A DNA stretch of 64,000 nt from NCBI RefSeq assembly GCF_021462505.1, contig NZ_JAKEDV010000003.1, positions 1-64,000 of the forward strand, given 5' to 3'. Source of the DNA: Thermus brockianus (GTDB taxonomy: Bacteria > Deinococcota > Deinococci > Deinococcales > Thermaceae). The notes beneath the pieces were generated by a model. It did no database searches and was not told the DNA's origin. It worked only from the letters and a program-made list of their open reading frames with translations. Shown piece after piece: positions 32,919-47,789 of this stretch (the first letter of the stretch is position 1; each line of letters opens with the position of its first letter). The position numbers were made by a program, and so were the translations under genes.

Positions 32919-34162
32919 GGGTTCTGGTGGTGGGCGGCGGGGGGCGGGAGCACGCCCTCCTTTGGAAGGCGGCGGAAAGCCCGCTGGTGGAGAAGCTGTA
33001 CGCTGCCCCCGGCAACGCCGGGATGGCGGCCTTGGCGGAGCTCGTCCCTTGGAATGGGGACGTGGAGGCTTTGGCGGACTGGGCCTTGGCGGAGGGCATA
33101 GACCTCACCCTGGTGGGGCCCGAGGCCCCCTTGGTGGAGGGGATTGCCGATGCCTTCTTGGAGCGGGGCCTGAAGATCTTCGGCCCCACGCAGAAGGCGG
33201 CCATGATTGAGGGCTCCAAGGCCTTCGCCAAGGGGCTTATGGAGCGCCACGGCATCCCCACGGCCCGCTACCGGGTCTTCACCGAGGCCCTCGAGGCCCT
33301 GGAGTACCTGGAGGAGGTGGGGGTGCCCATCGTGGTGAAGGACTCGGGGCTCGCCGCCGGCAAAGGGGTCACGGTGGCCTTTGACCTACACCAGGCCAAG
33401 CAGGCGGTCCTCAACCTCCTCTCGGGCCCCGAGGGGGGGGAGGTGGTGATAGAGGAGTACCTGGAGGGGGAGGAGGCCACGGTGCTCGCCCTCACCGACG
33501 GGGAGACCATCCTTCCCCTCCTCCCTTCCCAGGACCACAAGCGCCTCCTGGACGGGGACCAGGGCCCCATGACCGGGGGGATGGGGGCGGTGGCCCCGTA
33601 CCCCATGGACACCGCCACCCTGCGCCGGGTGGAGGAGGAGATCCTGAAGCCCTTAATCCGGGGCCTCCGGGCGGAAGGGGTGGTCTACCGGGGGGTGGTC
33701 TACGCCGGGCTCATGCTCACCCGGGAGGGCCCCAAGGTCCTGGAGTTCAACGCCCGCTTCGGCGACCCCGAGGCGCAGGCGTTGCTTCCCCTCTTGCGAA
33801 GCGACCTGGTGGAGCTCGCCCTTAGGGTGGCGGAGGGAAGGCTTGCGGGAACCGAGCTTTCTTGGAAGGAAGGGGCCGCCGCCTGCGTGGTCCTGGCCGC
33901 CCCCGGCTACCCCGAGGCCCCCAAAAAGGGCATCCCCCTCCACGTGCCCGAGCCCCCGGAAGGGGTCCTGGTCTTCCATGCGGGCACCCGGTGGGAGGGG
34001 GGGCGGCTTCTTTCCACTGGGGGGAGGGTTTTGAACGTGGTGGGCCTGGGGAAGGACCTGGAGGAGGCCCTGGCCCGGGCCTACGCCTTCATCCCGCGGG
34101 TGGGCTTCCCGGGGGCGGTCTACCGGAAGGACATTGGGCAGAAGGCCCTTAGGGCCCGCTAG
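32915..34162 (+). CDS. purD: Phosphoribosylamine-glycine ligase
   Basis: A 415-aa ATP-grasp enzyme, second step of purine synthesis. MRVLVVGGGGREHALLWKAAES at the start, LTLVGPEAPLVEGI, the ATP-grasp PIVVKDSGLAAGKGV (about 142) and LEFNARFGDPEAQ (about 274) are diagnostic. The start is set by the family N-terminus and the ATGA overlap with purN. It converges on the exonuclease gene with a 4-base overlap. Confidence 0.97.
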   Translation: MRVLVVGGGGREHALLWKAAESPLVEKLYAAPGNAGMAALAELVPWNGDVEALADWALAEGIDLTLVGPEAPLVEGIADAFLERGLKIFGPTQKAAMIEGSKAFAKGLMERHGIPTARYRVFTEALEALEYLEEVGVPIVVKDSGLAAGKGVTVAFDLHQAKQAVLNLLSGPEGGEVVIEEYLEGEEATVLALTDGETILPLLPSQDHKRLLDGDQGPMTGGMGAVAPYPMDTATLRRVEEEILKPLIRGLRAEGVVYRGVVYAGLMLTREGPKVLEFNARFGDPEAQALLPLLRSDLVELALRVAEGRLAGTELSWKEGAAACVVLAAPGYPEAPKKGIPLHVPEPPEGVLVFHAGTRWEGGRLLSTGGRVLNVVGLGKDLEEALARAYAFIPRVGFPGAVYRKDIGQKALRAR

Positions 34163-36036
34163 TACTTGAGCCGGGCCAGGGGGAGCCGCTTGCAGGCGGA
34201 AAGCACCGCTCCCAGGGTGGCGTAGCCCTTCTCCTTCAGGAGGGGCACCATGCGGGCGAAGACCTCCGCGGTCATGAGGGCGTCCCCGAGGGCGGTGTGC
34301 CGGCCGAGCACGGGGACCCCGAAGCGCTCCGCCAGGGCCTCGAGGCGGTGGTCCTTGAGGTCGGGGAAGAGGAGGTGGGCGAGGAGGAGGGTGTCCACCA
34401 AGGGGGGCTCCCCCACCCCCACCTTCCGCAGAAAGGCCAGGTCAAAGGCCCCGTTGTGGGCCAGGAGCACCGTGTCCTCCAGGAAGGCCTTGAAGGCGGG
34501 GAGGACCTCTTCCAGCCTGGGCTTGCCCTTAAGCATCTCCCAGGTGAGGCCGTGCACCTCCGTGGCCGCCTTGGGGACGGGGCGCCCGGGGTCCACCAGG
34601 GCCTCAAAGGTTTCCTGGTAGAGCACCTTTCGCCCCAGCACGTGCACCGCCCCTAGGGCGATGATGGCGTCCTTTTCCGGGTCTAGGCCGGTGGTCTCCA
34701 GGTCAAAGGCGGTGTAGAGGAGGCCCTCCAAGGGGGCCTCCTCCAGGGCCTCCGGCACCTGGAGCAGGGCGGGGTCCACCACCTCGGCCCGGGGTGGGGG
34801 TCCTTGGGGGACGGGGAGGCTTGGCGCTTCCCTGGCCGGGAGGAGGAGGTGAAGCCGGCCACCCTCCCGCCAAAGGCTTCCCCGGGCGGCCTCCACCGCC
34901 TCCTGCAGGAGGGGGTGGGGCTTTGGGGCGGGGTGGGGGAAGCTTAGGGTGAGGCGGAAGAGACCCCCTTGCCGTGCCCCTTCCAGAAAGACCTCCTCCT
35001 CGTTTCCCAAGGTGGCGGCGAGGCCCCGGGCCAGGGCGTAGGTGTCCGCTTGCACCAAAAACCCCTCGGCCCCTTCCCTTAGGGCAAACCCCGGGGAAAG
35101 CCCCGCCTCCCGCTCCAGGGCCTCCGCCAAAAGGGAAAGGAGGTCTTCCGCCCGCACCTCCTCCACCTGCGCCGGGGCCTTGAGCGCTTCCACCAGGTGG
35201 GAAAGGGCCTCCGCCGTGGCCCGGGCTTGGGCGAGGAGGGGGTGGGGCACCTCCTCCGCCAAGGCCTCCACCATGGCCCTAAGCCCCGCCAGCTTGTCCC
35301 TTAAGCGGTGCAAGGTGGCCTCCTTTAGCTCCCCCTCCTCCTGCGCCTCTTCCAAAAGGAGCAGAAAGCCCCCTTCCGCCAAGGCCACCGCCTGGAGGCG
35401 CAGGGGCCCCCTGGGCCCTTGGGTGAGGAAGCGCTCCTCGGGGAGGGCCAGGGCGTGGGCCAGGAGCCCCCGGTCTAGGAGGCCGAAGAGGCTCTTGCCC
35501 GCCCCTAGCCCTTCCCCAAGGAGCCTGCGGGCCGGGGGGTTGTAGAGGAGGACCTGGCCCTTTGGGCTTGCCAGCACCACCCCTTGGGGCAGGTGGGCGA
35601 TGAGGGCGGCCAGGATTTCCCGCTCCCGCTCCAAGAGGGCCTTGGCCTCGGCGATGCGGGTTTCCACCTCCTTTTCCAGGGCTTCCTTTTCCTCGGCCAG
35701 GCGGTTGATGAGCCTGGCCAAGGCCTGAAGCTCAAAGGGTCCCTTGAGGCGCAGGCGGTGGCCGGGATGGGCCAGGAGGACCTCCGCCTCCTGGCCCAGG
35801 GCCCGGGTGGCGGCCAGGTACCCCAGGAAAAGGGGGTGGAGGAGGGCGGCCAGCACCAGGGCGAAGAGGAGGCCCAGGAAGAGGAGGAGAAAGGCCTTCT
35901 CCTGGGCCACCCGGAGGAGTTCCCGTGCCAGGGCCTCCTCCCCTTGGAGGAGGAGGAAAAGCCCCGCCCCCACCGTCCCCCCCACCAGGAGGAGGCCCAA
36001 GAGGAGGGCGCCCAAAAAGCGCAGGGCCTCCCTCAT
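34159..36036 (-). CDS. Membrane pseudo-histidine kinase fused to a DEDDh exonuclease
   Basis: 625 aa. Two membrane helices (about 8-30, 46-72), a HAMP-like and coiled-coil stretch, a PAS-like domain (about 145-210) and a kinase-like region (about 230-405). The H-box is altered (LHRLRDKL for HELRTPL) and I see no N or G boxes, so it is probably inactive. Residues about 440-620 form a DnaQ/PolC-type 3'-5' exonuclease with intact motifs: FDLETTGLD (Exo I), HNGAFDLAFL (Exo II), and H...D in GRHTALGDALMTAEVF (Exo III). Last gene of the kinase operon; overlaps the receiver by 4 bases. Confidence 0.85.
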   Translation of the reverse strand: MREALRFLGALLLGLLLVGGTVGAGLFLLLQGEEALARELLRVAQEKAFLLLFLGLLFALVLAALLHPLFLGYLAATRALGQEAEVLLAHPGHRLRLKGPFELQALARLINRLAEEKEALEKEVETRIAEAKALLEREREILAALIAHLPQGVVLASPKGQVLLYNPPARRLLGEGLGAGKSLFGLLDRGLLAHALALPEERFLTQGPRGPLRLQAVALAEGGFLLLLEEAQEEGELKEATLHRLRDKLAGLRAMVEALAEEVPHPLLAQARATAEALSHLVEALKAPAQVEEVRAEDLLSLLAEALEREAGLSPGFALREGAEGFLVQADTYALARGLAATLGNEEEVFLEGARQGGLFRLTLSFPHPAPKPHPLLQEAVEAARGSLWREGGRLHLLLPAREAPSLPVPQGPPPRAEVVDPALLQVPEALEEAPLEGLLYTAFDLETTGLDPEKDAIIALGAVHVLGRKVLYQETFEALVDPGRPVPKAATEVHGLTWEMLKGKPRLEEVLPAFKAFLEDTVLLAHNGAFDLAFLRKVGVGEPPLVDTLLLAHLLFPDLKDHRLEALAERFGVPVLGRHTALGDALMTAEVFARMVPLLKEKGYATLGAVLSACKRLPLARLKY

Positions 36037-36392
36037 GCCCCCTCCAAGAGCCCCCGCACCCGGGCGAGGAAGTCCTCCGTGGCGAAGGGCTTGCCCAAAA
36101 ACCCCTCCGCCCCCAGGGCCTCCGCCTTGGCCCGGTCCGCCTCCCGGCCCCGGGCGGTGAGGACCAGGACCTTGGGGGGGCTTGGGCGGGCTTTTAGGCG
36201 CTCCAGGACGGCGAAGCCGTCTAGGCCAGGGAGCATCAGGTCTAAGACCACCAGGTCCACGGGGCCTCGCTCCACCGCCTCGAGGGCCTCCTCTCCCGTC
36301 TTGGCCAAGGCCACCTCGTACCCTGCCTTGCGCAGGAGAAACTCTAGGGGCACCAAGATGCTCTCCTCGTCATCCACCAAGAGAACCCGCAT
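36033..36392 (-). CDS. Stand-alone response regulator receiver
   Basis: 119 aa consisting of only a receiver domain: acidic pocket LLVDDEES (residues 6-8), phosphoacceptor Asp in LVVLDLMLPG (about 51), the Thr/Ser in LVLTARG and Lys in LGKPF. There is no DNA-binding or other output domain, unlike CrbR, the LuxR-type partner of CrbS. It overlaps the kinase by 23 bases and the exonuclease by 4. It probably works by binding a partner protein. Confidence 0.92.
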   Translation of the reverse strand: MRVLLVDDEESILVPLEFLLRKAGYEVALAKTGEEALEAVERGPVDLVVLDLMLPGLDGFAVLERLKARPSPPKVLVLTARGREADRAKAEALGAEGFLGKPFATEDFLARVRGLLEGA

Positions 36393-38868
36393 CCGCCACC
36401 TCCAAGGGCAAGGTAAAGGCGAAGGCCCCGCCTTCCCCTTCCTCCAGGTAAAGCCTTCCCCCCAAGGCCTCGGCAAGGCGCCTTGCCAGGTAAAGGCCAA
36501 GCCCCGTGCCGCCCGAAAGGCTTTGGAAGGGCTCAAAGATCCGGGGCCGGGCTTCCGCCGGGACCCCAGGGCCATCGTCCAGGACGCGGAAAAGGGCTTC
36601 TTGCCCTTTTGGGGCAAGCTCCAGGCGTACCCGGCTTTTGGCGTGGCGCACGGCGTTGGTGAGGAGGTTGAGGAGCACCTGGAGAACCCGGTCCCGGTCG
36701 GTGTGGGTGAAGAGTGGGGTCAAGGCCCTTTCCAGTCTAATTCCCCGCTCCCGGGCCAGGGGTTCGGCGAGGCTTAGGGCCTCCTCCGCCAAGGCCTTTA
36801 GGTCCGTGGGCCGCTTCTCCAAGGCGGGGTTTGCCTGGAGCCTGGCGTAGGCCAGGATTTCCTCCACCAGGCGGGAAAGCCTTTCCGTTTCCTTGGCCAG
36901 GAGGGCGGTGAAGCGCCCTTTTTCCTCCTCCGGGAGGTCCGGGTGGTCCCGCAGGATCTCCGCCAGGGCCCGCACGGCGGTGAGGGGGGTCTTGAGCTCG
37001 TGGGAAACCGCCCAAAGGAGCTCGTCCTTGGCTTGGTCCAGGGCCTTGAGCCGCTCGTAGGCCTCGGCCAGCTCCCGCCTTGCCGCCTCCAGGGCTTGGG
37101 CGTAGGCCCGCACCTCCTTGGACTCGCGGGCCGCCTCCTCCAGGAGGGGGGTGTAGCCCTCTTCCCCGGGGGCCTTTTGCGTGACGGAAAGGAGTAGGAG
37201 CCTCGCCGTGGCCGGGCCGATGGCGGAGGAGAGGAGGGCTTCGGCCCGCAGGGCGGCCTCCCTCCCCGAAAGCCCCTGGGCTTCCCTCAGGAAACCCTCC
37301 GCCGCCTCCCGGCCCAAGACCCTTTCCAAAAGGGCGGCGAGCGCCCCCACCTCCCCGGTGCGCCCTTCCCGTTGGGGTCTTCCCCGGCTAAAAAGGGAGA
37401 TGCCCAGGGTAAGGGCCAGGTTTACCCCAAAGCTCACCAAAAAGCCGTGGGTGATGGGGTCTAGGCCCTTTAGGCCCAAGAGCCCCTCCGGGCGCAGGAG
37501 GGGGTGGGGGCCTTCCAGGAAGGCCTGGGGAAGCCAGCCCGAGCGGGCCAGGGCGGGCAGGAAGAGGGTGTAGGCCCAGAGGAGGATCCCGGCCACGAGC
37601 CCCGCCAAGGCCCCTGTGCCCGTGGCCCCTTTCCAGTAGAGGCCGAGGAGGGCCGCCGGGGCCAGCTGGGTCACGGCCACGAAGGAGATGAGCCCCATGC
37701 CCACCAGGGCGTAGGCCTCCCCCGCCAGGCGGAAGTAGAGGTAGGCGAGGAGCATCACGAAGAGGATGGCGAGCCTTCGCCAAAGGAGGAGGCTTCCCAG
37801 GGCCCGGTAGCGCAGGAGGAGGGGGGAGAGGAGGTGGTTGGAAAGCAGGATGGAAAGGGCAAGCCCCTCCACCACCACCATGGCCGTGGCGGCGGAAACC
37901 GCCCCCAAGAAGGCCAGGAAGGCCACCCAGGGGTTTCCCGCAAGAAGGGGCAGGGCGAGGACGTAGAGGTCGGGGTTTTCCCCGGGCAAAAGAAGCCTTC
38001 CCCAGAGGGCCAAGGGGAGGATGGGCAGGTTGATGAGGAGGAGGTAGAGGGGGAAGGCCCAGGCGGCCTTGGGCAGGTGGCTGGGGTCTTGGCTTTCCAC
38101 CACCCCCACGTGGAACTGCCGGGGCAGGAAGAGGAAGGCGAGGGCGGAAAGCGCCACCAGGCTCACCCAAGCGAGGTGCCCGGAAAGCCCCTCGGGGGGC
38201 AGGAGGAGGGGGTGGAGGTCGGGGCGGGCTTGGGCGAGGGGAAAGGGGTTTCCCAGGCTCAGGAGGACGAAGGCGCCCACCAGGAGGAGGGCGAAGAGCT
38301 TCACCAAGGACTCAAAGGCCACCGCCAGGACCAGGCCCGGGTGGCGCTCCGAGGGGTCCAGGCGGCGGGTGCCGAAGAGGATGGCGAAGAGGGCGAGGAG
38401 AAGGGCGGTGAGGAGGGCCACGTCCGCCAGGGGAGCCTTTTCCCCGCTTAGGAAGAGGAAGGCTTGGGCGATGGCCTTAAGCTGCAGGGCCAGGTACGGC
38501 AAAAGCCCCACCACCAAAAACCCCGCCGCCAGGGGGGCTAGGGGCCCGGGGCCGTAGCGGAGGTGGAGGAAGTCCGCCCAGGAGGTGAGGCGGTGGGTCT
38601 TGGCCAGGGCGAGGAGCCTCCCGTGGAGCCAGGGCCAGAGGAGGAGGGTGAGGGTGGGGCCCAGGTAGATGGGGAGGAAGGTGGCCCCCTCCGTGGCCGC
38701 CCGGCCGGCGCTCCCCAGGAAAGTCCAGGCGGTGGCGTAGACCGCCAGGGAGAGGGCGTAGACCCAAGGGCTTTGCGTGAGGCGCGGGCGGCCTTCCCCC
38801 CACAGGGCCACCAGGAAGAGGAGGCCGAGGTAGAGGAAAAGGCCTAAAAGAAGCGTCCAAGGGCTCAT
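36370..38868 (-). CDS. SLC5 transporter-histidine kinase (CrbS/CbrA-like)
   Basis: 832 aa. The first 495 residues are a sodium:solute symporter-like domain with about 13 helices, followed by a helical STAC-like linker (about 500-570), a coiled coil and a complete kinase: H-box WAVSHELKTPLTAVRALAEIL (about 620), N-box NLLTNAVRHAK, G1 DDGPGVP, G2 GGTGLGLYLARRL. In gammaproteobacteria CrbS of this layout controls acetyl-CoA synthetase (the acetate switch); three such synthetases lie nearby here. It is coupled to the 58-aa gene upstream by ATGA. Confidence 0.9.
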   Translation of the reverse strand: MSPWTLLLGLFLYLGLLFLVALWGEGRPRLTQSPWVYALSLAVYATAWTFLGSAGRAATEGATFLPIYLGPTLTLLLWPWLHGRLLALAKTHRLTSWADFLHLRYGPGPLAPLAAGFLVVGLLPYLALQLKAIAQAFLFLSGEKAPLADVALLTALLLALFAILFGTRRLDPSERHPGLVLAVAFESLVKLFALLLVGAFVLLSLGNPFPLAQARPDLHPLLLPPEGLSGHLAWVSLVALSALAFLFLPRQFHVGVVESQDPSHLPKAAWAFPLYLLLINLPILPLALWGRLLLPGENPDLYVLALPLLAGNPWVAFLAFLGAVSAATAMVVVEGLALSILLSNHLLSPLLLRYRALGSLLLWRRLAILFVMLLAYLYFRLAGEAYALVGMGLISFVAVTQLAPAALLGLYWKGATGTGALAGLVAGILLWAYTLFLPALARSGWLPQAFLEGPHPLLRPEGLLGLKGLDPITHGFLVSFGVNLALTLGISLFSRGRPQREGRTGEVGALAALLERVLGREAAEGFLREAQGLSGREAALRAEALLSSAIGPATARLLLLSVTQKAPGEEGYTPLLEEAARESKEVRAYAQALEAARRELAEAYERLKALDQAKDELLWAVSHELKTPLTAVRALAEILRDHPDLPEEEKGRFTALLAKETERLSRLVEEILAYARLQANPALEKRPTDLKALAEEALSLAEPLARERGIRLERALTPLFTHTDRDRVLQVLLNLLTNAVRHAKSRVRLELAPKGQEALFRVLDDGPGVPAEARPRIFEPFQSLSGGTGLGLYLARRLAEALGGRLYLEEGEGGAFAFTLPLEVADAGSLGG

Positions 38869-39041
38869 GGCCGGCGGAAGAGGAGAAAGGCCAGAAAGAC
38901 CACCAAGGCCCAGGCCCCGAAGAGGTAGAGGTAAAGGGGGGGAAGCCCCAAAGGCCCCTCCACCCCCCGGAAGAGGAGGCTTAGGGGCAGGGTGAAGAGG
39001 AAGAGGGCGAGGAGGAAAAGGGCAAAGGCTTTTTCCTTCAT
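38865..39041 (-). CDS. 58-aa two-helix membrane protein
   Basis: A 59-codon frame begins with ATG at 39041 and reads MKEKAFALFLLALFLFTLP, a loop (RGVEGPLGLPPLY), then a second helix AWALVVFLAFLLF and the tail RRP. Both ends overlap neighbours as ATGA: the nucleotidyltransferase stop upstream and the kinase start downstream. Its place resembles that of small partner subunits of SLC5 transporters (DUF485, DUF4212), and I infer a similar role for the transporter-kinase. No named family recognised. Confidence 0.75.
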   Translation of the reverse strand: MKEKAFALFLLALFLFTLPLSLLFRGVEGPLGLPPLYLYLFGAWALVVFLAFLLFRRP

Positions 39042-40786
39042 CGCAGGTTAAAGCGGCTTGCCGTGCTCTCCTGGATTTCCTGGATGGCCCTAAACCCCTC
39101 GAGGGCCCGCCGTTTTTCCCCAGCGGAGAGGGCGGTCCAGAGCACCCGGTTCTCCACGGGCCTCCCTTCCCGGAAGGCCTTGAGCTGGTGGGCGAGCCGC
39201 AGGCCGAAGAAGAAGCGGAAGGCCTCCTCCAGCCTTTCCGCCCCTTCCCGGCTTAGCGTCCCCGCTTCCGCCGCTATGCGTAGCCTTTCCACCGTGCCCT
39301 TGGCGGCGCTTCCCGCCAGGAGGGCGTAAAGCCTCGCCAGGGACACGATGGGGGCGAGGGCGGAGCGCTTGAGGTCTATAAAGCCTTCTTCCGTGCGCAC
39401 CCGGCCCAGGAAGCCCAAGGGGGGGCGGAACTCCAGGCTGGCCCGGGCCAGGTGGTAGAGGAAGACCCCCCGCTTGGCCCCTTCCAGAATGGCTTCCTCC
39501 AGGGGTTTCAGGGAAAGGGCCCCGGCGGCGCTCCGGAAGTCAAAGAAGATCTGGGTTTCCAGGAGGGCCTGGGGCTCGGGGGTTTCCATGAAGCGGCGGA
39601 AGGTGGCGATCCAGTCCGCCAGGGGCATGCGCCAGCGGGTGGCCATGTAGCCCCCTTTGCACTCGGGGATCCCCGCCTGCAAAAGCCCCCCCACCACCCG
39701 CTCCGCCAGGGCCTGGAAGTAGGCCTCGTGCCCTCCTTCCGCCAGGACCAAGGCGTTGTCTTGGTCGGTGAGGAGGGCTTGCTCCTTTCGGCCTTCCGAG
39801 CCGAAGACCATGAAGCTATAGGGGATAGGGGGTGGCCCTAAGGCCGCTTCCGCCTCCTTCACCAGGCGCCGGATCAGGGCATCGTTCAAGGAGGCCACCA
39901 CCCGACCGATCTCCAGGGCCTCGAGGCCCTTTTGAAAAAGCCCCTCCACCAGGTGGGCCACCTCGGCGCTATAACGGGCGAGCTCCAGGCGCTCAATCCG
40001 CCGCAGGAGGAGAAGGGGGCTTTGCGCCTGGTGAAGGAGAAGGTCCGTGTGGGTGACCACGCCCACCAACTTCCCCCCTTCCGTGAGGGGCAGGTGGTGG
40101 ATCCCCCGCTCCACCATGGCCGCCACCGCCTCGTAAAGGGGGGTATCCGCCGGCAGGGCGAAGAGGGGAGCGGTCATCACCGCCGCCACGGGCGTGGAGG
40201 GGGGAAGGCCCTCCGCCAGCACCCGGTTTCTCAGGTCCCGGTCCGTGAGGATGCCCGGGGGGTCCGAGGCCACCAGGAGGCTACTTATGCCCTCCTCCCG
40301 CATCCTCCTCGCCGCCTCCTGCACCGGGGCCTCCGGGGCGATGAAGACGGGCTTTCGCCGCACGAGCCGCCCCACGGGGGCGAAGAGGGAGAGGTCGGGC
40401 AGGGCCCTAAGCCGTACCCGTTCCACCAGCCCCTGCCCGAAGAAGCGGGCGGCCTCGGGGTAGGCGAGGAGCTTGCGGAAGCTCTCCTCGGGGAAACATA
40501 GGAGGCGCACCGGGGTCTTGGCCACCACGCTAAACGCCGGGGGCTCCCCGGAAAGGAGGGACGGGAACCCGAAAAACTCCCCGGGCTCCAGGGTGTCCAC
40601 CTCCCTTTCCCCGTCCCGGAGGGCCACCTCTCCTTCCAGGACCAGGTAGACCGCCCGGGCCGGCCTTCCCCCTTGCTCCAGGAAAGGGGTGCCTGGGGGG
40701 TGGCGCTCCTCCCTGGCCTCTTGAAGGAGGGCTTCCCGTTCAGCCTCGGGAAGGGCGTTCAGGGGTGGGACCGTTCTTGGGTCCAT
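39038..40786 (-). CDS. cNMP-binding/CBS/DUF294 nucleotidyltransferase-like protein
   Basis: 582 aa. A cyclic-nucleotide-binding-like domain (about 10-120, LEPGEFFGFPSLLSGEP), two CBS motifs (about 145-260, VQEAARRMREEGISSLLVA and LYEAVAAMVERGIHHLPL), then a DUF294 nucleotidyltransferase domain with FGSEGRKEQALLTDQDNALV (about 340), and a helical C-terminal DUF294_C part. It resembles the GlnD-type sensory nucleotidyltransferases that accompany acetate permease and CrbS genes in proteobacteria. It overlaps the upstream membrane gene by 47 bases. Confidence 0.88.
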   Translation of the reverse strand: MDPRTVPPLNALPEAEREALLQEAREERHPPGTPFLEQGGRPARAVYLVLEGEVALRDGEREVDTLEPGEFFGFPSLLSGEPPAFSVVAKTPVRLLCFPEESFRKLLAYPEAARFFGQGLVERVRLRALPDLSLFAPVGRLVRRKPVFIAPEAPVQEAARRMREEGISSLLVASDPPGILTDRDLRNRVLAEGLPPSTPVAAVMTAPLFALPADTPLYEAVAAMVERGIHHLPLTEGGKLVGVVTHTDLLLHQAQSPLLLLRRIERLELARYSAEVAHLVEGLFQKGLEALEIGRVVASLNDALIRRLVKEAEAALGPPPIPYSFMVFGSEGRKEQALLTDQDNALVLAEGGHEAYFQALAERVVGGLLQAGIPECKGGYMATRWRMPLADWIATFRRFMETPEPQALLETQIFFDFRSAAGALSLKPLEEAILEGAKRGVFLYHLARASLEFRPPLGFLGRVRTEEGFIDLKRSALAPIVSLARLYALLAGSAAKGTVERLRIAAEAGTLSREGAERLEEAFRFFFGLRLAHQLKAFREGRPVENRVLWTALSAGEKRRALEGFRAIQEIQESTASRFNLR

Positions 40787-41111
40787 AATCCGGGGTGAGC
40801 CAGGCGAGGAGGGGGACCAGGAAGTGGTAGGCCGCCTGCCCGCCCAGGGCTAGGGTCAGCCCTAAGCCCAGGACAAAGGCAGGGGGCAGAAGGACGAAAA
40901 GCCGCACCACGCGCCCTAGGCCTGGCGGGGGAAGGGGCCAAAGCCGGTGGTAAAAAACGCCAAGGCCCATGCCTATCAGGGCCGCGAGGGCAAGGCGCAG
41001 GAGGAAGCCGGGGGTGGGGAAGGGAAGGCCCAGGGCGTAGTGGCCCCCTAGGTAGAAGAGGAAGAGGGCCGTCAAGCTTCCCAGGTAAAAGCGGAGGTAG
41101 CCAAGTACCAT
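40740..41111 (-). CDS. Small membrane protein (123 aa)
   Basis: Three to four hydrophobic segments (about 5-25, 33-53, 65-90, 92-108) with a charged, proline-rich tail. No family recognised. It is first gene of the sensor operon, with TAGAAT five bases before the ATG. The 3' end is read in two frames because the nucleotidyltransferase gene starts inside it. Confidence 0.65.
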   Translation of the reverse strand: MVLGYLRFYLGSLTALFLFYLGGHYALGLPFPTPGFLLRLALAALIGMGLGVFYHRLWPLPPPGLGRVVRLFVLLPPAFVLGLGLTLALGGQAAYHFLVPLLAWLTPDYGPKNGPTPERPSRG

Positions 41112-41171: not shown

Positions 41172-42841
41172 TTAGTGCTCTGCCGCCTGGCCCGCCCCTT
41201 TGGGCACGCGGATCTCGTCCACCAGCTTCTGGATCTCTGCGGGGGGCGGGGGCGTGGCCCGGGAGACCAGGTAGGCTACCAGGAAGTTGAGGAGCATGCC
41301 CACGGTGCCGATGCCCTCCGGGGAGATACCGAAGACGAAGCGGGGCCAGCCCAGGTAGTTCGTGCCCACGATGTAGGTGGCGGTGAAGATCAGCCCTACG
41401 AGCATCCCGGCCACCGCCCCCTGGGTGTTCATCCTGCGGTCAAAGATGCCCAGGAGGATGGCGGGGAAGAAGGTGCTGGCGGCAAGCCCGAAGGCAAAGG
41501 CCACCAGCTGGGCGATGAAGGCGGGCGGGTTGATGCCAAAGGGGGCTGCGAGGACCGTGACCAGGAGGATCACCACCCGGGCGATGGTGAGCTTGGTGGT
41601 CTCCGAGGCCTGGGGGTTGATGATGCGGGTGTAGAGGTCGTGGGAGATGGCGCTGGCCATGACGATGAGAAGCCCCGCCGCTGTGGAAAGCGCCGCCGCC
41701 AGGCCGCCTGCCGCCACCAGGCCTACCACGATGGGGGAAAGCTTCGCCACCTCGGGGGTGGAGAGGACGATGATGTCCCGGTCAATGGTGATCTCGTTGG
41801 TGTCGCGGCTAGCGGTGATTTGGTAGATGCGTCCCCGTTTTTGTCCTCCAGCTTGAGAAGGCCCGTCTTGCTCCACTTCTGCACCCAGTCAATCTGCTGC
41901 ACTTCCTCCACCGGCTTGTTGGCCAAGGTGTTCAGGAGGTTGTACTTGGAGAAGACGGCCACAGCGGGGGCGGTGGTGTAGAGAAGGGCGATGAAGAGGA
42001 GGGCCCACCCGGCGCTCCAGCGGGCGTCGGAGGCCTTGGGCACGGTGTAGAAACGGATGATCACGTGGGGTAGGCCGGCCGTACCCACCATGAGGGTTAG
42101 GGTGATGAGGAAGACGTTGAGCTGGCTCAGGCTTTGGAAGGGCTTGACATATTCGTTGAGGCCAAGTTCCACCTGCAGTTGGCTAAGCCGCACAGCGAAG
42201 TCTGAGAAGGTGAAGGCGAGCTGGGGGATGGGGTTTCCCGTGAGGAGGTTGGCGAGGGCGATGCCGGTGATGAGGTAGGCGATGATGAGCACGGTGTACT
42301 GGGCCACCTGGGTCCAGGTGATGCCCTTCATCCCACCGATTACGGCGATGAAGGCGGTGACCAAAACGGCGGCCCACACGCCCGTGGCCACATCCACCCC
42401 TAGATAGCGGGAAAGGACGATGCCCACGCCCCGGAGCTGGGGCACCACGTACACGAAGGAAACGAAGAGGGCGGAGATCACCGCCACCACCCGGGCCACG
42501 TTGGAGTAGTACCGGTCCCCCACGAACTCGGGCACGGTGAACTTGCCGTACTTGCGCAGGTAAGGGGCGAGGAGGAGGGCGAGGAGGACGTACCCTCCCG
42601 TCCAGCCCATGAGGTACACCGCCCCGTCAAACCCGAGGAAGGAGATGAGGCCTGCCATAGAGATGAAGCTCGCCCCCGACATCCAGTCGGCGGCGGTGGC
42701 GGCCCCGTTGGCCACGGGGGGTACGCCGCGGCCTGCCACGTAGAACCCCGTGGTCTCCCGCACGCGGGCCCAGTAGCCGATGCCCAGGTAGAGGGCGAAG
42801 GTGAGGAGTACGATGATCCAAGTCCAAACTTCCGCGGTCAT
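41172..42841 (-). pseudogene. Sodium:solute symporter (SSS/SLC5, VC2705-like), frameshifted
   Basis: Two frames cover one protein of about 555 aa. The N-terminal part (42841 to about 41840: MTAEVWTWIIVLLTFALYLGIGYW, WMSGASFISMAGL) holds the first nine or so helices. The rest, from RIYQITASRDTNEI to 41172, is in the -1 frame. The shift falls at an A5-C-G4 run (41833-41842); one added base there restores a single frame. Its DUF4212 partner precedes it, and synthetase genes lie beyond, so acetate or another short acid is the likely substrate. Recent mutation or homopolymer sequencing error cannot be separated. Confidence 0.85.
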
Positions 42842-43310: not shown

Positions 43311-45194
43311 CTACTCCTCCAGGGTGGAGAGGTCCCCGGGGTCCTTGCCCAGTTCCTGGGCTTTGAGGAGGCGGCGCAGGATCTTCCCCGAGCGCGTCTT
43401 GGGGAGCTTCTCCAGGAAGACCACCTCGCTGGGGGTGGCGATGGGCCCCAACTCCCTGCGCACGTGCTGCACGATGCTTTCCCTTAGCTCCTCCGAAGGG
43501 GTTTGCCCGGCGCGCAACACCACGAAGGCCTTGATGGCCTCCCCCTTCAGGGGGTCGGGCACGCCGATCACCGCCGCCTCCGCCACCGCCGGGTGGGAAA
43601 CCAAGGCGCTCTCCACGTCCGCGGTGCCGATGCGGTGGCCGGCCACGTTGAGGACGTCGTCCGCCCGGCCCAGGATGCTGAAATAACCCTCCTCGTCCAT
43701 CACCGCCACGTCCCCGGCGGCGTAGACCCCTCCCGGCACCTCGCGCCAGTACTGGAGGTAGCGCTCGTGGTTGCCCCAGACGGTGCGCATCATGTGGGGG
43801 AAGGGCCTTTTGAGCGCCAAAAGCCCCCCTTGCCCCGGGGGGACGGGCTTCCCCTCCTCGTCCACCACCAAGGCCTCCACCCCCGGCAAGGCTACCCCGG
43901 CAAACCCCGGCTTGGCGGGAAGGGCGAGGGGGGTGCCCAGGGTGGGCCCGCCCAGCTCCGTCTGCCACCAGTTGTCCGCCACGAAGCCCCGCTGGCCCCC
44001 CTCCACCAGGTGGGCGTAGGCCCAGCGCAGGGCCTCGGGGTTTAGGGGCTCGCCCGCCACGGCGAGGAGGCGCAAGGAGGAGAGGTCGTACCGCTTGGGC
44101 CACTCGGGGCCGTACTTCATGAAAAGCCGCACCGCCGTGGGGGCGGTGAACATCACGTTCACCCGGTACCGCTCCACCACCTGCCAGAAGGCCCCGGGGT
44201 CGGGGTAGTCCGGGGCCCCTTCCCGGAGCACGGAGGTGATGCCTTCCAAGAGGGGGGCGTAGACGATGTAGGAGTGGCCCACGATCCAGCCGATGTCGCT
44301 GGTGGCCCAGAAGACGTCCTCGTCCTTCACGTCAAAGAAGGTGCGCAGGTGGTAGGTGGTGCCCACCATGTAGCCCCCGTGGACGTGGACCACCCCCTTG
44401 GGTTTGCCCGTGGAGCCCGAGGTGTAGAGGATGAAGAGGGGGTGTTCCGCCTCCACCATCTCCGCCCGGGCCTCCGGGGGGGTGTTCCAGAGGAGCTCGT
44501 GGAGGTCGTAATGCCCCTCGGGAAGCTCCGCCCGGTAGGCCCGTTGGAACCAGATGACCTTCAGGGGAAGGTCCCGAATGGCCTCCTCCACGATGGACCG
44601 GAGGTCCACGCCCTTCCCCCTCCGGTAGCTCACGTCCCCGGCGATGAGGAGCTTGGCCCCGGCATCCAGGATGCGCTCCCTCAAGGCCGCCACCCCGAGC
44701 CCGGCGTAGACCACGCTGTGGATGGCCCCCAGGTAGGCCACGGCCAGCATGGCGATGACCCCCTCCAGGGTGAGGGGCATGTAGATCACCACCCGGTCCC
44801 CCTTGCCCACCCCAAGCCCTTTAAGCGCCGTGGCCAGGCGGCGCACCCGGTCCAGGAGTTCCCCGTAGGTGAGCTTCGCTTCCCGGCCGTCCTCGGAGAG
44901 GTAGAGGAGGGCCACCTTGTTCCTCAGGCCCCGCTCCACGTTGCGCTCCAGGGCGTTGTAGACGGCGTTGGTGGTGCCCTCCAGGAACCAGCGGTGCTCG
45001 GGGAGGTGCCACTCCAGGACCTTCTGGAAGGGCTTCTCCCAGTAGAACCGCTTCGCCCACTCCCCCCAGAAGCCCTCGGGGTCTTCCAGGCTCCGCCGGT
45101 ACTCCGCAGCGAGGTCCTTCAGGTTGGCCGCTTGCCGCAAGGGTTCTGGGGCCCAAAGCCTTTCTTCCGCCCTAAGGAGTTTTTCCACCGCCAT
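43311..45194 (-). CDS. AMP-forming acyl-CoA synthetase (Acs/PrpE-like)
   Basis: 627 aa, homologous end to end to acetyl-CoA synthetase. ATP loop [20 protein letters not shown] (about 264), DNWWQTELGG (Trp of the acyl pocket), hinge region [21 protein letters not shown] and catalytic Lys in [13 protein letters not shown] near the end. At the pocket position where Acs has Val (GTVGEP) this protein has Ala (AVAGEP), a change associated with a larger acyl group, so propionate is a fair guess. The ATG lies inside the 3' end of the IclR-fusion gene (23-base overlap). Confidence 0.9.
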   Translation of the reverse strand: MAVEKLLRAEERLWAPEPLRQAANLKDLAAEYRRSLEDPEGFWGEWAKRFYWEKPFQKVLEWHLPEHRWFLEGTTNAVYNALERNVERGLRNKVALLYLSEDGREAKLTYGELLDRVRRLATALKGLGVGKGDRVVIYMPLTLEGVIAMLAVAYLGAIHSVVYAGLGVAALRERILDAGAKLLIAGDVSYRRGKGVDLRSIVEEAIRDLPLKVIWFQRAYRAELPEGHYDLHELLWNTPPEARAEMVEAEHPLFILYTSGSTGKPKGVVHVHGGYMVGTTYHLRTFFDVKDEDVFWATSDIGWIVGHSYIVYAPLLEGITSVLREGAPDYPDPGAFWQVVERYRVNVMFTAPTAVRLFMKYGPEWPKRYDLSSLRLLAVAGEPLNPEALRWAYAHLVEGGQRGFVADNWWQTELGGPTLGTPLALPAKPGFAGVALPGVEALVVDEEGKPVPPGQGGLLALKRPFPHMMRTVWGNHERYLQYWREVPGGVYAAGDVAVMDEEGYFSILGRADDVLNVAGHRIGTADVESALVSHPAVAEAAVIGVPDPLKGEAIKAFVVLRAGQTPSEELRESIVQHVRRELGPIATPSEVVFLEKLPKTRSGKILRRLLKAQELGKDPGDLSTLEE

Positions 45195-47703
45195 AGCTTT
45201 CCTCCAGTCCCGAGGTGTCCCCCGGGTCTAGGCCCAAAAGCTCCGCCTTTAAGAGGCGCCGCAGGATCTTGCCGCTCCGGGTGCGGGGGAGGCTTTCGGC
45301 GAAGAGGACCCGGGGCGGGGGCACGGGGCCCAGGTGGCGCAGGAGGTGGGCCTTGAGCTTTTCCGCCAGGAGGGGTTTGAGCTCCTCGGGTACCGCCTGC
45401 TTGGGCACCACGAAGACCACGATCTCCTCCCCCTCTTCCCCCGGGACCCCAATGGCCGCCGCCTCCGCCACCTGGGGGTGGGTGAGGGCGGCGGCCTCCA
45501 CCTCGGCGGTGCCGAGCCTGGCTTCCCCCACCTTGATCACCTCCTCCGAGCGCCCCAGGATGCGGAAATACCCCTCCTCGTCCATCACCGCCAGGTCCCC
45601 GGTCCAGTAAAGCCCCCCCTGCCAGGGGTTTCCCCCTCCAAGGAGGTCCACCAGCTGGGCGGGGCCCGCCCGGAGGAGGACCAGGTGCCCCTTGGCCCCC
45701 GGGGGGAGGACCTCGCCCCGCTCGTCCACCACCCGGGCCTCCACCCCGGGCAGGGGCACCCCCACGAAGCCCGGCTTGGCGGAAAGGGTGAGGGGGGTGG
45801 CGAGGGCCGGGGCCCCTAGCTCCGTCTGCCACCAGTTGTCCACGGGCCAGGCCAGGTTCTCCCGGGTCCAGCGCCACACCTCCGGGGCCAAGGCCTCCCC
45901 CACGCTCCCCACCAGGCGCAGGCCCGTGGGCCTGGCCTCCCCGTGGCGCCTTAGGGTGCGGAGCAGGGTGGGGGAGGTGAGGAGGACGTCCACCCCAAGC
46001 CGGGCCAGGCGCTCGTAGAAGGCGGCGGGGCTTGGGTGGTCGGGCCGGTCTTCCGCCAGGAGGCTCGTTCCCCCAAGGAAAAGGGGGGCGTAGAGGCCGA
46101 AGGAATGGCCCACCACCCAGAAGAGGTCGGCGGTGGTGTGGAAGACCTCCCCCGGTTTCAGGTCAAAGAGGTAGCGGAGGGCCCAGGCCACCCCCACCAT
46201 GTACCCCCCGTGGCCGTGGACCACGCCCTTGGGCTTCCCCGTGGAGCCCGAGGTGTGGAGGAGGAAGAGGGGGTGGTGGGCGGGCACGGGCACGGGGTCC
46301 ACCGGCCTCCCTTCCGAAACCCTTTCCCAAAACTCCGTGCTCCCCCGCGCGTGCCAGAGCACGGGGAGGTCTAGCCCCGCTATGGCCGCCTCCACCACGG
46401 GGCGCAAGGGGACCAGTTGCCCCCTGCGGTAGTAGCCGTCGGCGGCGAGGAGGAGGCGGGCCTGGCTTTGGAGAAGCCTTTCCCTTAAGGCCTCAGGTCC
46501 AAGGCCCACGGGCAAGGCCACGTGCACCGCTCCTATGCGGGCCAGGGCCAAAAGGGCTAAGGCAGCCTCGGCCCCTGTGGGCATGTAGAGGGCCACCCGG
46601 TCCCCGGGCCGGACCCCTAAACCCCAAAGGAGGCCCGCCAGGCGGGCGGAGAGCTCCTTGAGTTCCCGGTAGGTCCACTTTTCCAGGCGCCCTTCCCCGT
46701 CCAGGGTGAGGAGGGCCACCTGTTGGGCCCTTTCCGGGAGGTGGCGGTCCAGGGCGTTTAGGGCGGCGTTGGTGAGCCCCCCTTGGAACCAGCGGCGGCT
46801 TTCGGGGTCGTAGGCCTTTTCCCAGGGCTTTTCCCAGAAGAACGCCCGGGCGAAGGGGCCAAAGAAGCCCTCGGGGTCCTCGAGGGCCTCCCGGTAGGCG
46901 GCGGCGAAGTCCTGCAGGTTGGCCTTCTCCTTGAGCCCTGGGGGAGGGTCCACCACCTCCACCCGGAAGCTCCCCTCCGGGGGCGGGGCGAGGCTTGGGG
47001 GCTCGGGGGGCTTGAGGTAAGGGGAAACCTGGGCCACCTCGGAAAGGGCCCGGGCCAGGCGGCTAAAGGCGAAGGGGAAGCGCCGGGCCGGCACCACCAC
47101 GCCCAAGGCCCCGAGGAGCTCCCCGCCTGGGCCAAAAAGGGGGGCGGCCAAGGCGGAAAGCCCCAAGGCGTACTCCTCCATCTCCGCCGCCAGGCCCGAT
47201 TCCCGCACCCGTTTGAGCTCCTCCTCCAGGGCCAAGGGGTCCGTGAGGGTATAGGGGGTGCGGGGGCGGAGAGGGGGGAGGGGCAGGGCGTGGAAGGCCA
47301 GGAGGACCTTGCCCAGGGCCAGGGCGTGGGCCTCCTCGGGGAGAGTTTCCCCCAAGGGGTGGGGCTGGCCCTGCCGCCCCCGGGTCTTGAGCCGCACCCC
47401 TTCGGGGGTGAGGAGGGCCAGGTAGCAGCGCTCCCGCGTGCGCAGGTAAAGCTCCTCGAGGGCCTCCTCCAAGGGCGTGGTCTCCACCCTCAGGGGCTTG
47501 GCGCTTCCTAGGCGGTAGCCCCTTTCCCCTTTAACGGCGAAGCCTTCCTCCACCAGGCTATTGAGAAGGGCGTAGGCGGTGGAAAGGCTTTTCCCCAGGA
47601 GGCGGGCCACCTCCTTCACCTCTACCCCCTCGGGGTGCTCCGCCAGGTAGGCCAGGATGCGCAAGGCGGCCTGGACGGTGGAGAGGCTTCGCTTCTTGGC
47701 CAT
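45172..47703 (-). CDS. IclR-type regulator fused to an acetyl-CoA synthetase-like enzyme
   Basis: 843 aa in one uninterrupted frame. Residues about 1-60 are an IclR winged helix (STVQAALRILAYLAEHPEG, LGKSLSTAYALLNSLVEEGF); about 75-235 is the IclR effector domain (YALGLSALAAPLFGPGGELLGALGVVVPA). From about 262 (LKEKANLQDFAAAYREALEDPEGFF) a full AMP-forming synthetase follows: [51 protein letters not shown] and PRTRSGKILRRLL with the catalytic Lys. The acyl-pocket Val is kept (GSVGEA). Start ATG at 47703 fits IclR N-termini and has GGGGG upstream. Confidence 0.9.
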   Translation of the reverse strand: MAKKRSLSTVQAALRILAYLAEHPEGVEVKEVARLLGKSLSTAYALLNSLVEEGFAVKGERGYRLGSAKPLRVETTPLEEALEELYLRTRERCYLALLTPEGVRLKTRGRQGQPHPLGETLPEEAHALALGKVLLAFHALPLPPLRPRTPYTLTDPLALEEELKRVRESGLAAEMEEYALGLSALAAPLFGPGGELLGALGVVVPARRFPFAFSRLARALSEVAQVSPYLKPPEPPSLAPPPEGSFRVEVVDPPPGLKEKANLQDFAAAYREALEDPEGFFGPFARAFFWEKPWEKAYDPESRRWFQGGLTNAALNALDRHLPERAQQVALLTLDGEGRLEKWTYRELKELSARLAGLLWGLGVRPGDRVALYMPTGAEAALALLALARIGAVHVALPVGLGPEALRERLLQSQARLLLAADGYYRRGQLVPLRPVVEAAIAGLDLPVLWHARGSTEFWERVSEGRPVDPVPVPAHHPLFLLHTSGSTGKPKGVVHGHGGYMVGVAWALRYLFDLKPGEVFHTTADLFWVVGHSFGLYAPLFLGGTSLLAEDRPDHPSPAAFYERLARLGVDVLLTSPTLLRTLRRHGEARPTGLRLVGSVGEALAPEVWRWTRENLAWPVDNWWQTELGAPALATPLTLSAKPGFVGVPLPGVEARVVDERGEVLPPGAKGHLVLLRAGPAQLVDLLGGGNPWQGGLYWTGDLAVMDEEGYFRILGRSEEVIKVGEARLGTAEVEAAALTHPQVAEAAAIGVPGEEGEEIVVFVVPKQAVPEELKPLLAEKLKAHLLRHLGPVPPPRVLFAESLPRTRSGKILRRLLKAELLGLDPGDTSGLEESYGGGKTP

Positions 47704-47736
47704 CTGCCCCCATCTTGCCCTTGGTAGGCCCTTCCC

Positions 47737-47789
47737 TGTCAAGAAAGGGGGGCTTTGGCAAATGGTGAAAAACCCCCCTTTTCTTGACC
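47737..47789. promoter_or_regulatory. Inverted repeat joining the divergent acs and IclR-Acs promoters
   Basis: GTCAAGAAAGGGGGG (47738-47752) and CCCCCCTTTTCTTGAC (47773-47788) are inverted copies 20 bp apart. Each contains a TTGAC -35: minus-strand TTGACA (47737-47742) for the fusion gene and plus-strand TTGACC (47784-47789) for acs. A protein on this element would control both genes. The minus-strand -10 is poor (CAAGAT, 19-bp spacer), suggesting a need for activation. Confidence 0.75.

Follow-up and report, generated by a model that had tools for sequence, protein, structure and literature searches.

A membrane-bound pseudokinase-exonuclease encoded behind a lone receiver in an acetate gene cluster of Thermus brockianus

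The exoK chain and its operon

The window studied here is a stretch of 64,000 nucleotides from Thermus brockianus (assembly GCF_021462505.1, contig NZ_JAKEDV010000003.1, positions 1 to 64,000 of the forward strand). Its minus strand carries a cluster with acetate genes that ends in exoK, as we name it here, the gene for a chain of 625 amino acids (aa) in which membrane helices and a histidine kinase-like part are joined to an exonuclease. An earlier note on this DNA, made from the sequence alone, had proposed that the receiver encoded next to this protein may signal to it, making a nuclease the output of acid sensing. The gene and the parts of its product are:

34159..36036, minus: exoK, 625-aa membrane pseudokinase-exonuclease (single open reading frame, domain searches, AlphaFold2)
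35770..36033, minus: two membrane helices (residues 2-30 and 48 to about 75), the second continuing into a HAMP-like helix to residue 89 (AlphaFold2 helices)
35347..35595, minus: PAS domain, residues about 148-230 (weak Pfam match and fold match)
35185..35322, minus: DHp-like hairpin, residues 239-284, with H243 and the basic R246 at position His+3 (alignment and model)
34828..35163, minus: CA-like domain lacking N, G1 and G2 boxes, residues 292-403 (alignment and model)
34231..34719, minus: DEDDh 3'-5' exonuclease domain, residues 440-602 (Pfam, residues, fold)

Judged by its sequence, the C-terminal part of exoK is an intact DEDDh exonuclease of the RNase_T/DnaQ type with predicted 3'-5' activity, as the earlier note had held. 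RNase_T (PF00929) was matched at residues 443-593 with 115.5 bits (cut-off 24, E 4.8e-33), a PolC-type exonuclease structure was matched by sequence (E 4.9e-34) as well as by fold (Z 24.4, root mean square deviation (rmsd) 1.8, 188 aligned), and all five active-site residues, D445, E447, D532, H580 and D585, are identical in 89/89 aligned relatives. Catalytic domain, fold and residues are shared with exonucleases of the PolC/DnaQ epsilon type (PDB 2p1j, 9qpc), from which exoK differs in having no polymerase and in being joined to membrane and signalling domains. Housekeeping proofreading was rejected as its main role because the gene lies in an acetate cluster and the genome holds a second DnaQ-type match elsewhere (G000:C1). 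Anti-phage defence was also set aside; the PADLOC models concerned (DEDDh, PDC-S48) matched the DEDDh domain alone, and none matched DUF294 or the kinase.

Structure prediction, suggested earlier as a check on the 625-aa chain, recovered in the model the two membrane helices (2-30, 48-89), the PAS domain (152-230), the hairpin, the CA-like domain and the exonuclease. The AlphaFold2 model, based on a 39-sequence alignment, has a mean pLDDT (predicted local distance difference test) of 84.0 and a pTM (predicted template modelling score) of 0.40, so that the relative placement of its domains is unreliable; it includes a coiled helix at 101-147, the hairpin helices at 239-261 and 266-284 and an exonuclease starting at 440. 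A separate model of the middle segment (pLDDT 85.1) matches PAS domains and histidine-kinase cores, and the earlier description of these regions as PAS-like and kinase-like is therefore correct. The PAS model aligns with PpsR Q-PAS1 (Z 13.0, rmsd 2.1, 97 aligned), the DHp-CA model with HK853 (Z 12.2, rmsd 10.0, 165 aligned), the CA-like model with the CA domain of PrrB (Z 11.5, rmsd 2.8, 112 aligned) and the exoK model with DivL (Z 10.7, rmsd 2.9, 112 aligned). A DHp-CA fold is thus predicted, with matches to HK853, EnvZ and PrrB, at Z values of 10.7-12.2 and with an rmsd that is high for some. In the window's own sequence PAS and HisKA score under their Pfam cut-offs; PAS is above its cut-off in the relatives L059 and L105, and HAMP was matched weakly in one relative (L045).

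The fusion is real, since exoK forms a single unbroken full-length chain in 20/26 Thermus genomes; together with its occurrence in other phyla this excludes an assembly or read-through artefact. The earlier note would have yielded to proof that the exonuclease is a separate gene. This is not so in the window, where exoK is one open reading frame, but it does hold in two Thermus genomes (G003, G012). At L046:6885-7466 and L047, in two Thermus genomes, a bare exonuclease occupies the same chromosomal spot beside purD, together with a different symporter and a shorter version of the DUF294 protein; kinase and receiver are absent there. Two loci (L043:7824-9736 and L044:8268-10177, two Thermus genomes) have the pseudokinase and exonuclease parts out of frame; the shift falls where the hinge sequence is rich in C and may be a sequencing error or slippage.

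The genes are transcribed in the order acs, actP-type symporter, 123-aa membrane protein, DUF294 protein, symporter-kinase, receiver, exoK. Read back from exoK, the neighbours are:

36033..36392, minus: receiver-only response regulator (REC), 119 aa, acceptor Asp51, K101 (domain search and alignment)
36370..38868, minus: SSS-type symporter domain plus intact histidine kinase, 832 aa (HisKA 57.5 bits, HATPase_c 83.8 bits)
39038..40786, minus: cNMP-binding/CBS/DUF294 nucleotidyltransferase-like protein, 582 aa (domain search)
40740..41111, minus: small membrane protein, 123 aa, no family matched (kept in Thermus operons; DUF4212 proteins at this position elsewhere)
41172..42841, minus: VC_2705-family sodium/solute symporter (actP type), frameshifted (open reading frames 41723-42841 and 41172-41876)
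43311..45194, minus: acetate--CoA ligase (acs), 627 aa (TIGR02188 728.3 bits, cut-off 724.95)

As stated earlier, exoK shares an operon with a real kinase and a receiver: the intact symporter-kinase and REC directly precede it, and the REC stop overlaps the exoK start by four bases (ATGA). REC is a 119-aa receiver alone, with neither output nor DNA-binding domain, and the acceptor Asp and the Lys are kept in 32/32 family receivers. The SSF match of the 832-aa symporter-kinase, 22.3 bits, falls just short of the cut-off of 22.8. DUF294_C has been grouped with the C-termini of GlnD/GlnE-type nucleotidyltransferases in published work (PMC3710099). What the earlier note called acid sensing is better described as a monocarboxylate (acetate/pyruvate) context, supplied by acs and the actP-type symporter. 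The actP-type gene is split by a one-base frameshift, a sequencing error or a recent break, and is whole (556 aa) in L171, from an almost identical genome of this species. Directly upstream of acs, 45172-47742 encodes an 856-aa protein that begins like a helix-turn-helix regulator, by eye one of the IclR kind, and whose body resembles acetate--CoA ligases (NF001208 matched from residue 266 with 481 bits, under the cut-off). Terminator-like sites at the locus (12 vs. 11.9 expected by chance) show no excess, and from one promoter-like site vs. 0.3 expected no argument was drawn.

Lost kinase motifs and spread of the family

By its motifs exoK is not a histidine kinase, kinase catalysis having been lost. 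Among 63 receiver-linked relatives the N-box is present in 0/63, G1 in 1/63 and G2 in 1/63, while the symporter-kinase reading frames of the same loci, used as control, retain them in 20/22 (N), 19/22 (G1) and 18/22 (G2). The ATP-binding boxes are accordingly absent, as the earlier note had reported, and no alignment restored kinase motifs, the finding it had regarded as fatal to its proposal. Its broken H-box holds in part: the acidic residue after the histidine is gone (R244 in exoK, Arg instead of acidic/Glu in most Thermaceae), but the histidine itself is still present as H243. The phosphoacceptor position is His in exoK and 19/22 Thermaceae, with Phe in L011 and L020 and Arg in L169; in the receiver-linked forms from Pseudomonadota it is His in 0/41. 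Consequently the family lacks both the ATP boxes and the conserved His followed by Glu/Asp by which sensor histidine kinases are recognised. A basic residue is nevertheless found at His+3 in 62/63 sequences (Arg in 40/41 Pseudomonadota, Lys/Arg in 22/22 Thermaceae).

On sequence evidence the exoK architecture is no Thermus oddity and belongs to a conserved family of Deinococcota and Pseudomonadota. In Paracoccus denitrificans PD1222 a 706-aa relative, annotated just as 'exonuclease domain-containing protein', follows DUF294, a small protein, symporter-kinase and receiver in the same order. In Cupriavidus necator N-1 the order, taken from open reading frames, is kinase-REC-exonuclease with the receiver adjoining the exonuclease. 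Architecture and gene order are common across phyla at 34-35% identity of exoK to L059 and L060. A profile of the family matched 28/49 Thermaceae genomes (E 1e-40) and 37/299 sampled Pseudomonadota genomes at E 3.2e-73 or better, with further matches in 15/240 genomes of one class and 26/48 of another (E 1e-60); at 1e-30 as many as 259/299 Pseudomonadota genomes match, mostly through the exonuclease domain alone.

Neighbours were counted at 39 receiver-linked and 21 other Pseudomonadota loci, on stretches of unequal length, some ending at contig ends: DUF294 is nearby in 30/39 and 19/21, an actP-type symporter in 23/39 and 11/21 and an acs-type gene in 16/39 and 8/21, respectively. In other Pseudomonadota a DEDDh exonuclease is directly fused to CBS-DUF294 (L173:1154-3286, 710 aa; L174:1500-3617, 705 aa), and these fusions argue that exonuclease and DUF294 act on one pathway. 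L158:8274-9782 joins the same type of exonuclease to a transporter of the EamA type, with a DUF294 gene lying opposite. Two alphaproteobacterial loci (L061:5665-6186, L062:5664-6182) have a 172-173-aa protein between DUF294 and exonuclease that has no Pfam match above cut-off; it is present in 9/21 loci without upstream receiver vs. 3/39 with receiver.

Hairpin and upstream receiver

If REC acts on exoK, one would expect forms with the receiver to retain the hairpin, and this was tested over 87 loci. With REC directly upstream the hairpin is present in 63/63 cases, REC never adjoining a form without it. Of the 24 loci in which REC is not directly upstream, 21 have no hairpin or a shortened one, one has a hairpin of unreduced aligned length but scrambled sequence (L166, by eye) and two have an intact one (L102, L151). 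Some of these forms have lost the hairpin and kept the CA-like part (L127, L168 and, from another genus of Thermaceae, L045), others have lost both and kept membrane and PAS parts (L061, L062, L129-L133, L153, L154 and others), and in L114 and L116-L118 the hairpin is shortened. With a hairpin length cut of 51 the full table reads 63/18/6/0 (both, neither, hairpin only, REC only); the six at or above the cut without upstream REC are L102, L151, L166 and the shortened L114, L116 and L118, the last three of which together with the 18 below the cut make up the 21/24. Left out of these counts were bare or otherwise fused exonucleases (L138-L145, L170), the frame-broken L043 and L044, which have a receiver upstream, and the bare exonucleases L046 and L047, in which an over-long reading frame gave a false segment.

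For the exonuclease-domain tree the table has 82 rows (58/21/3/0 in 'strict' coding), the near-identical Thermus loci L004, L005, L014, L015 and L018 being omitted from the tree only. This tree implies no fewer than 8 changes in hairpin state and no fewer than 10 in REC adjacency; five independent pairs lie on supported branches, of which 2-4 point in the same direction and 0 in the opposite one. No full-length symporter-kinase was found in seven of the genomes searched (G027, G003, G012, G124, G594, G595, G283), six of them without intact hairpin, the exception being G283 (L102). Whole-genome searches found a symporter-kinase, some partial, in at least 35/39 receiver-linked genomes, where the best 23 candidates at most were scored per genome and the 4/39 misses may be false.

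Possible action of the receiver on exoK

DivL, which acts on the kinase CckA, is the closest known counterpart; its output is a separate kinase, that of exoK would be a nuclease on the same chain. According to the published work, DivL is a pseudokinase without kinase and phosphatase activity that binds the phosphorylated single-domain DivK via its DHp surface, and R553, three residues after Y550, is needed for this, R553A breaking DivK~P binding (PMC4211667). In these respects exoK is alike: a PAS-DHp-CA pseudokinase with lost phosphoacceptor function, a single-domain receiver as putative partner and a basic residue at His+3. This candidate partner is the product of the neighbouring gene with the 4-base overlap.

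A second parallel concerns the metabolic setting. Pseudomonas putida PP_0353, an RNase_T exonuclease in an operon with the CBS-domain protein PP_0354, is a target gene of MxtR/ErdR (CrbS/CrbR) and hence under symporter-type kinase control, its deletion slows growth on pyruvate and its authors speculate on mRNA decay; the accessible portions of this account name neither a membrane or pseudokinase part nor an adjacent receiver (PMC9927547). PP_0353/PP_0354 adjoin actP in some Pseudomonas, and an actP-type symporter also stands in the exoK cluster. The CrbS/R acetate switch, too, comprises a symporter-kinase with acs and actP in the system, the latter two being neighbours of exoK; CrbR is a transcription activator, whereas the receiver in Thermus lacks an output domain, and the parts of these papers that could be accessed do not mention an exonuclease (PMC5715377, PMC5436829).

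A single chain with intact nuclease residues and lost kinase boxes, encoded last in the gene order and keeping its hairpin wherever REC directly precedes it, can be read as a DivL-like pseudokinase that reads REC and gates the fused nuclease. On balance we hold this to be probable, if far from secure. The symporter-kinase, responding to acetate, pyruvate or an acid of that kind, would phosphorylate REC; REC~P would dock on the DHp-like hairpin of exoK by analogy with DivK~P on DivL in Caulobacter; the change might then travel via the CA-like domain and linker and switch the exonuclease at the membrane. The earlier suggestion of a receiver signalling to exoK with the nuclease as output thus gains comparative support from the 63/63 hairpins, the at least 8 state changes and the docking-type residue kept at His+3 while the catalytic His was lost.

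Several observations weigh against such docking. The sign test on the independent pairs gives p 0.125-0.5 and is underpowered with five pairs, the shortened hairpins of L114 and L116-L118 allow two scorings, which give a 'neither' count of 21 or 17, and L102 and L151 retain an intact hairpin without receiver directly upstream. Several alphaproteobacteria with reduced or no hairpin (L114, L116-L118, L129-L133) keep the symporter-kinase elsewhere in the genome, with a receiver-only gene near most of these displaced kinases, and L153 and L154 have a close receiver of the family in a divergent neighbouring unit, yet their exonuclease is hairpin-less. From these loci it follows that the hairpin goes with operon partnership and not with whether the genome has a receiver at all. 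Moreover, forms with membrane part, PAS and exonuclease persist without hairpin, so REC is not essential for the nuclease to act or to be regulated. The exonuclease might act alone in acetate/pyruvate metabolism, the membrane, PAS and hairpin parts serving to anchor and dimerise it, while REC addresses the symporter-kinase or another partner and the link between REC and hairpin reflects the shared history of a long operon form. The displaced kinases and receivers of the alphaproteobacteria fit this, as do the bare exonuclease adjoining DUF294 in two Thermus genomes and PP_0353, which works bare and whose deletion slows growth on pyruvate in the available account (PMC9927547). On the other hand, a pure dimeriser need not keep the basic His+3 residue despite lost catalysis nor the hairpin in 63/63 receiver-adjacent forms, and the Thermus operon offers no other evident output for the receiver-only protein; we regard autonomous action as a genuine possibility but doubtful.

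Were the Thermus hairpin an Hpt-like phosphotransfer module, H243 would take phosphate from REC~P and phospho-His would set nuclease activity. H243 does align with the phosphoacceptor His kept in 19/22 Thermaceae, and both Asp and Lys are preserved in the family's receivers; Phe or Arg in three Thermaceae (L011, L020, L169) and His in 0/41 Pseudomonadota forms nonetheless mean that the family works without this histidine, and such a relay is very improbable. The lost kinase boxes and the frame breaks in G009, G024 and G021 could also suggest a decayed remnant of a second sensor kinase, fused by chance to a DnaQ-type nuclease and free of signalling constraint. This reading is already unlikely, barely credible in fact, given the architecture and gene order shared across phyla at 34-35% identity to L059/L060 and the catalytic residues, all of which are kept; the breaks come from assemblies of 1-6 contigs, a C-rich stretch holds two of the breaks, and sequencing errors may be their cause.

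For the docking reading, the most economical guess at the exoK substrate is a product of the nucleotidyltransferase-like DUF294 protein encoded nearby, because the two are operon partners and one-chain fusions exist in other bacteria. The operon may even be a phospho-controlled 'writer and eraser', in which the GlnD/GlnE-like DUF294 protein, with its CBS and cNMP parts as sensors, adds nucleotides to an RNA or protein that serves acetate/pyruvate metabolism and the DEDDh exonuclease at the membrane, gated by REC docked on the dead kinase, removes them; we offer this as speculation and think it improbable in so specific a form. If true, a two-component system would control a nuclease enzymatically, without transcription factor.

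Response regulators act mostly on DNA, and to our knowledge there are few cases of a lone receiver working through a dead kinase, DivL being the example found. A description of a pseudokinase-exonuclease fusion was not found in the literature searched, which covered mainly titles and abstracts, with most subscription journals outside it. A conserved family with nuclease output would extend dead-kinase wiring to nucleic-acid or nucleotide turnover, with the natural hairpin-less variants as ready-made controls, and it would offer a mechanism, open to test, for why growth on pyruvate needs a PP_0353-type exonuclease, a finding that has been published but not explained.

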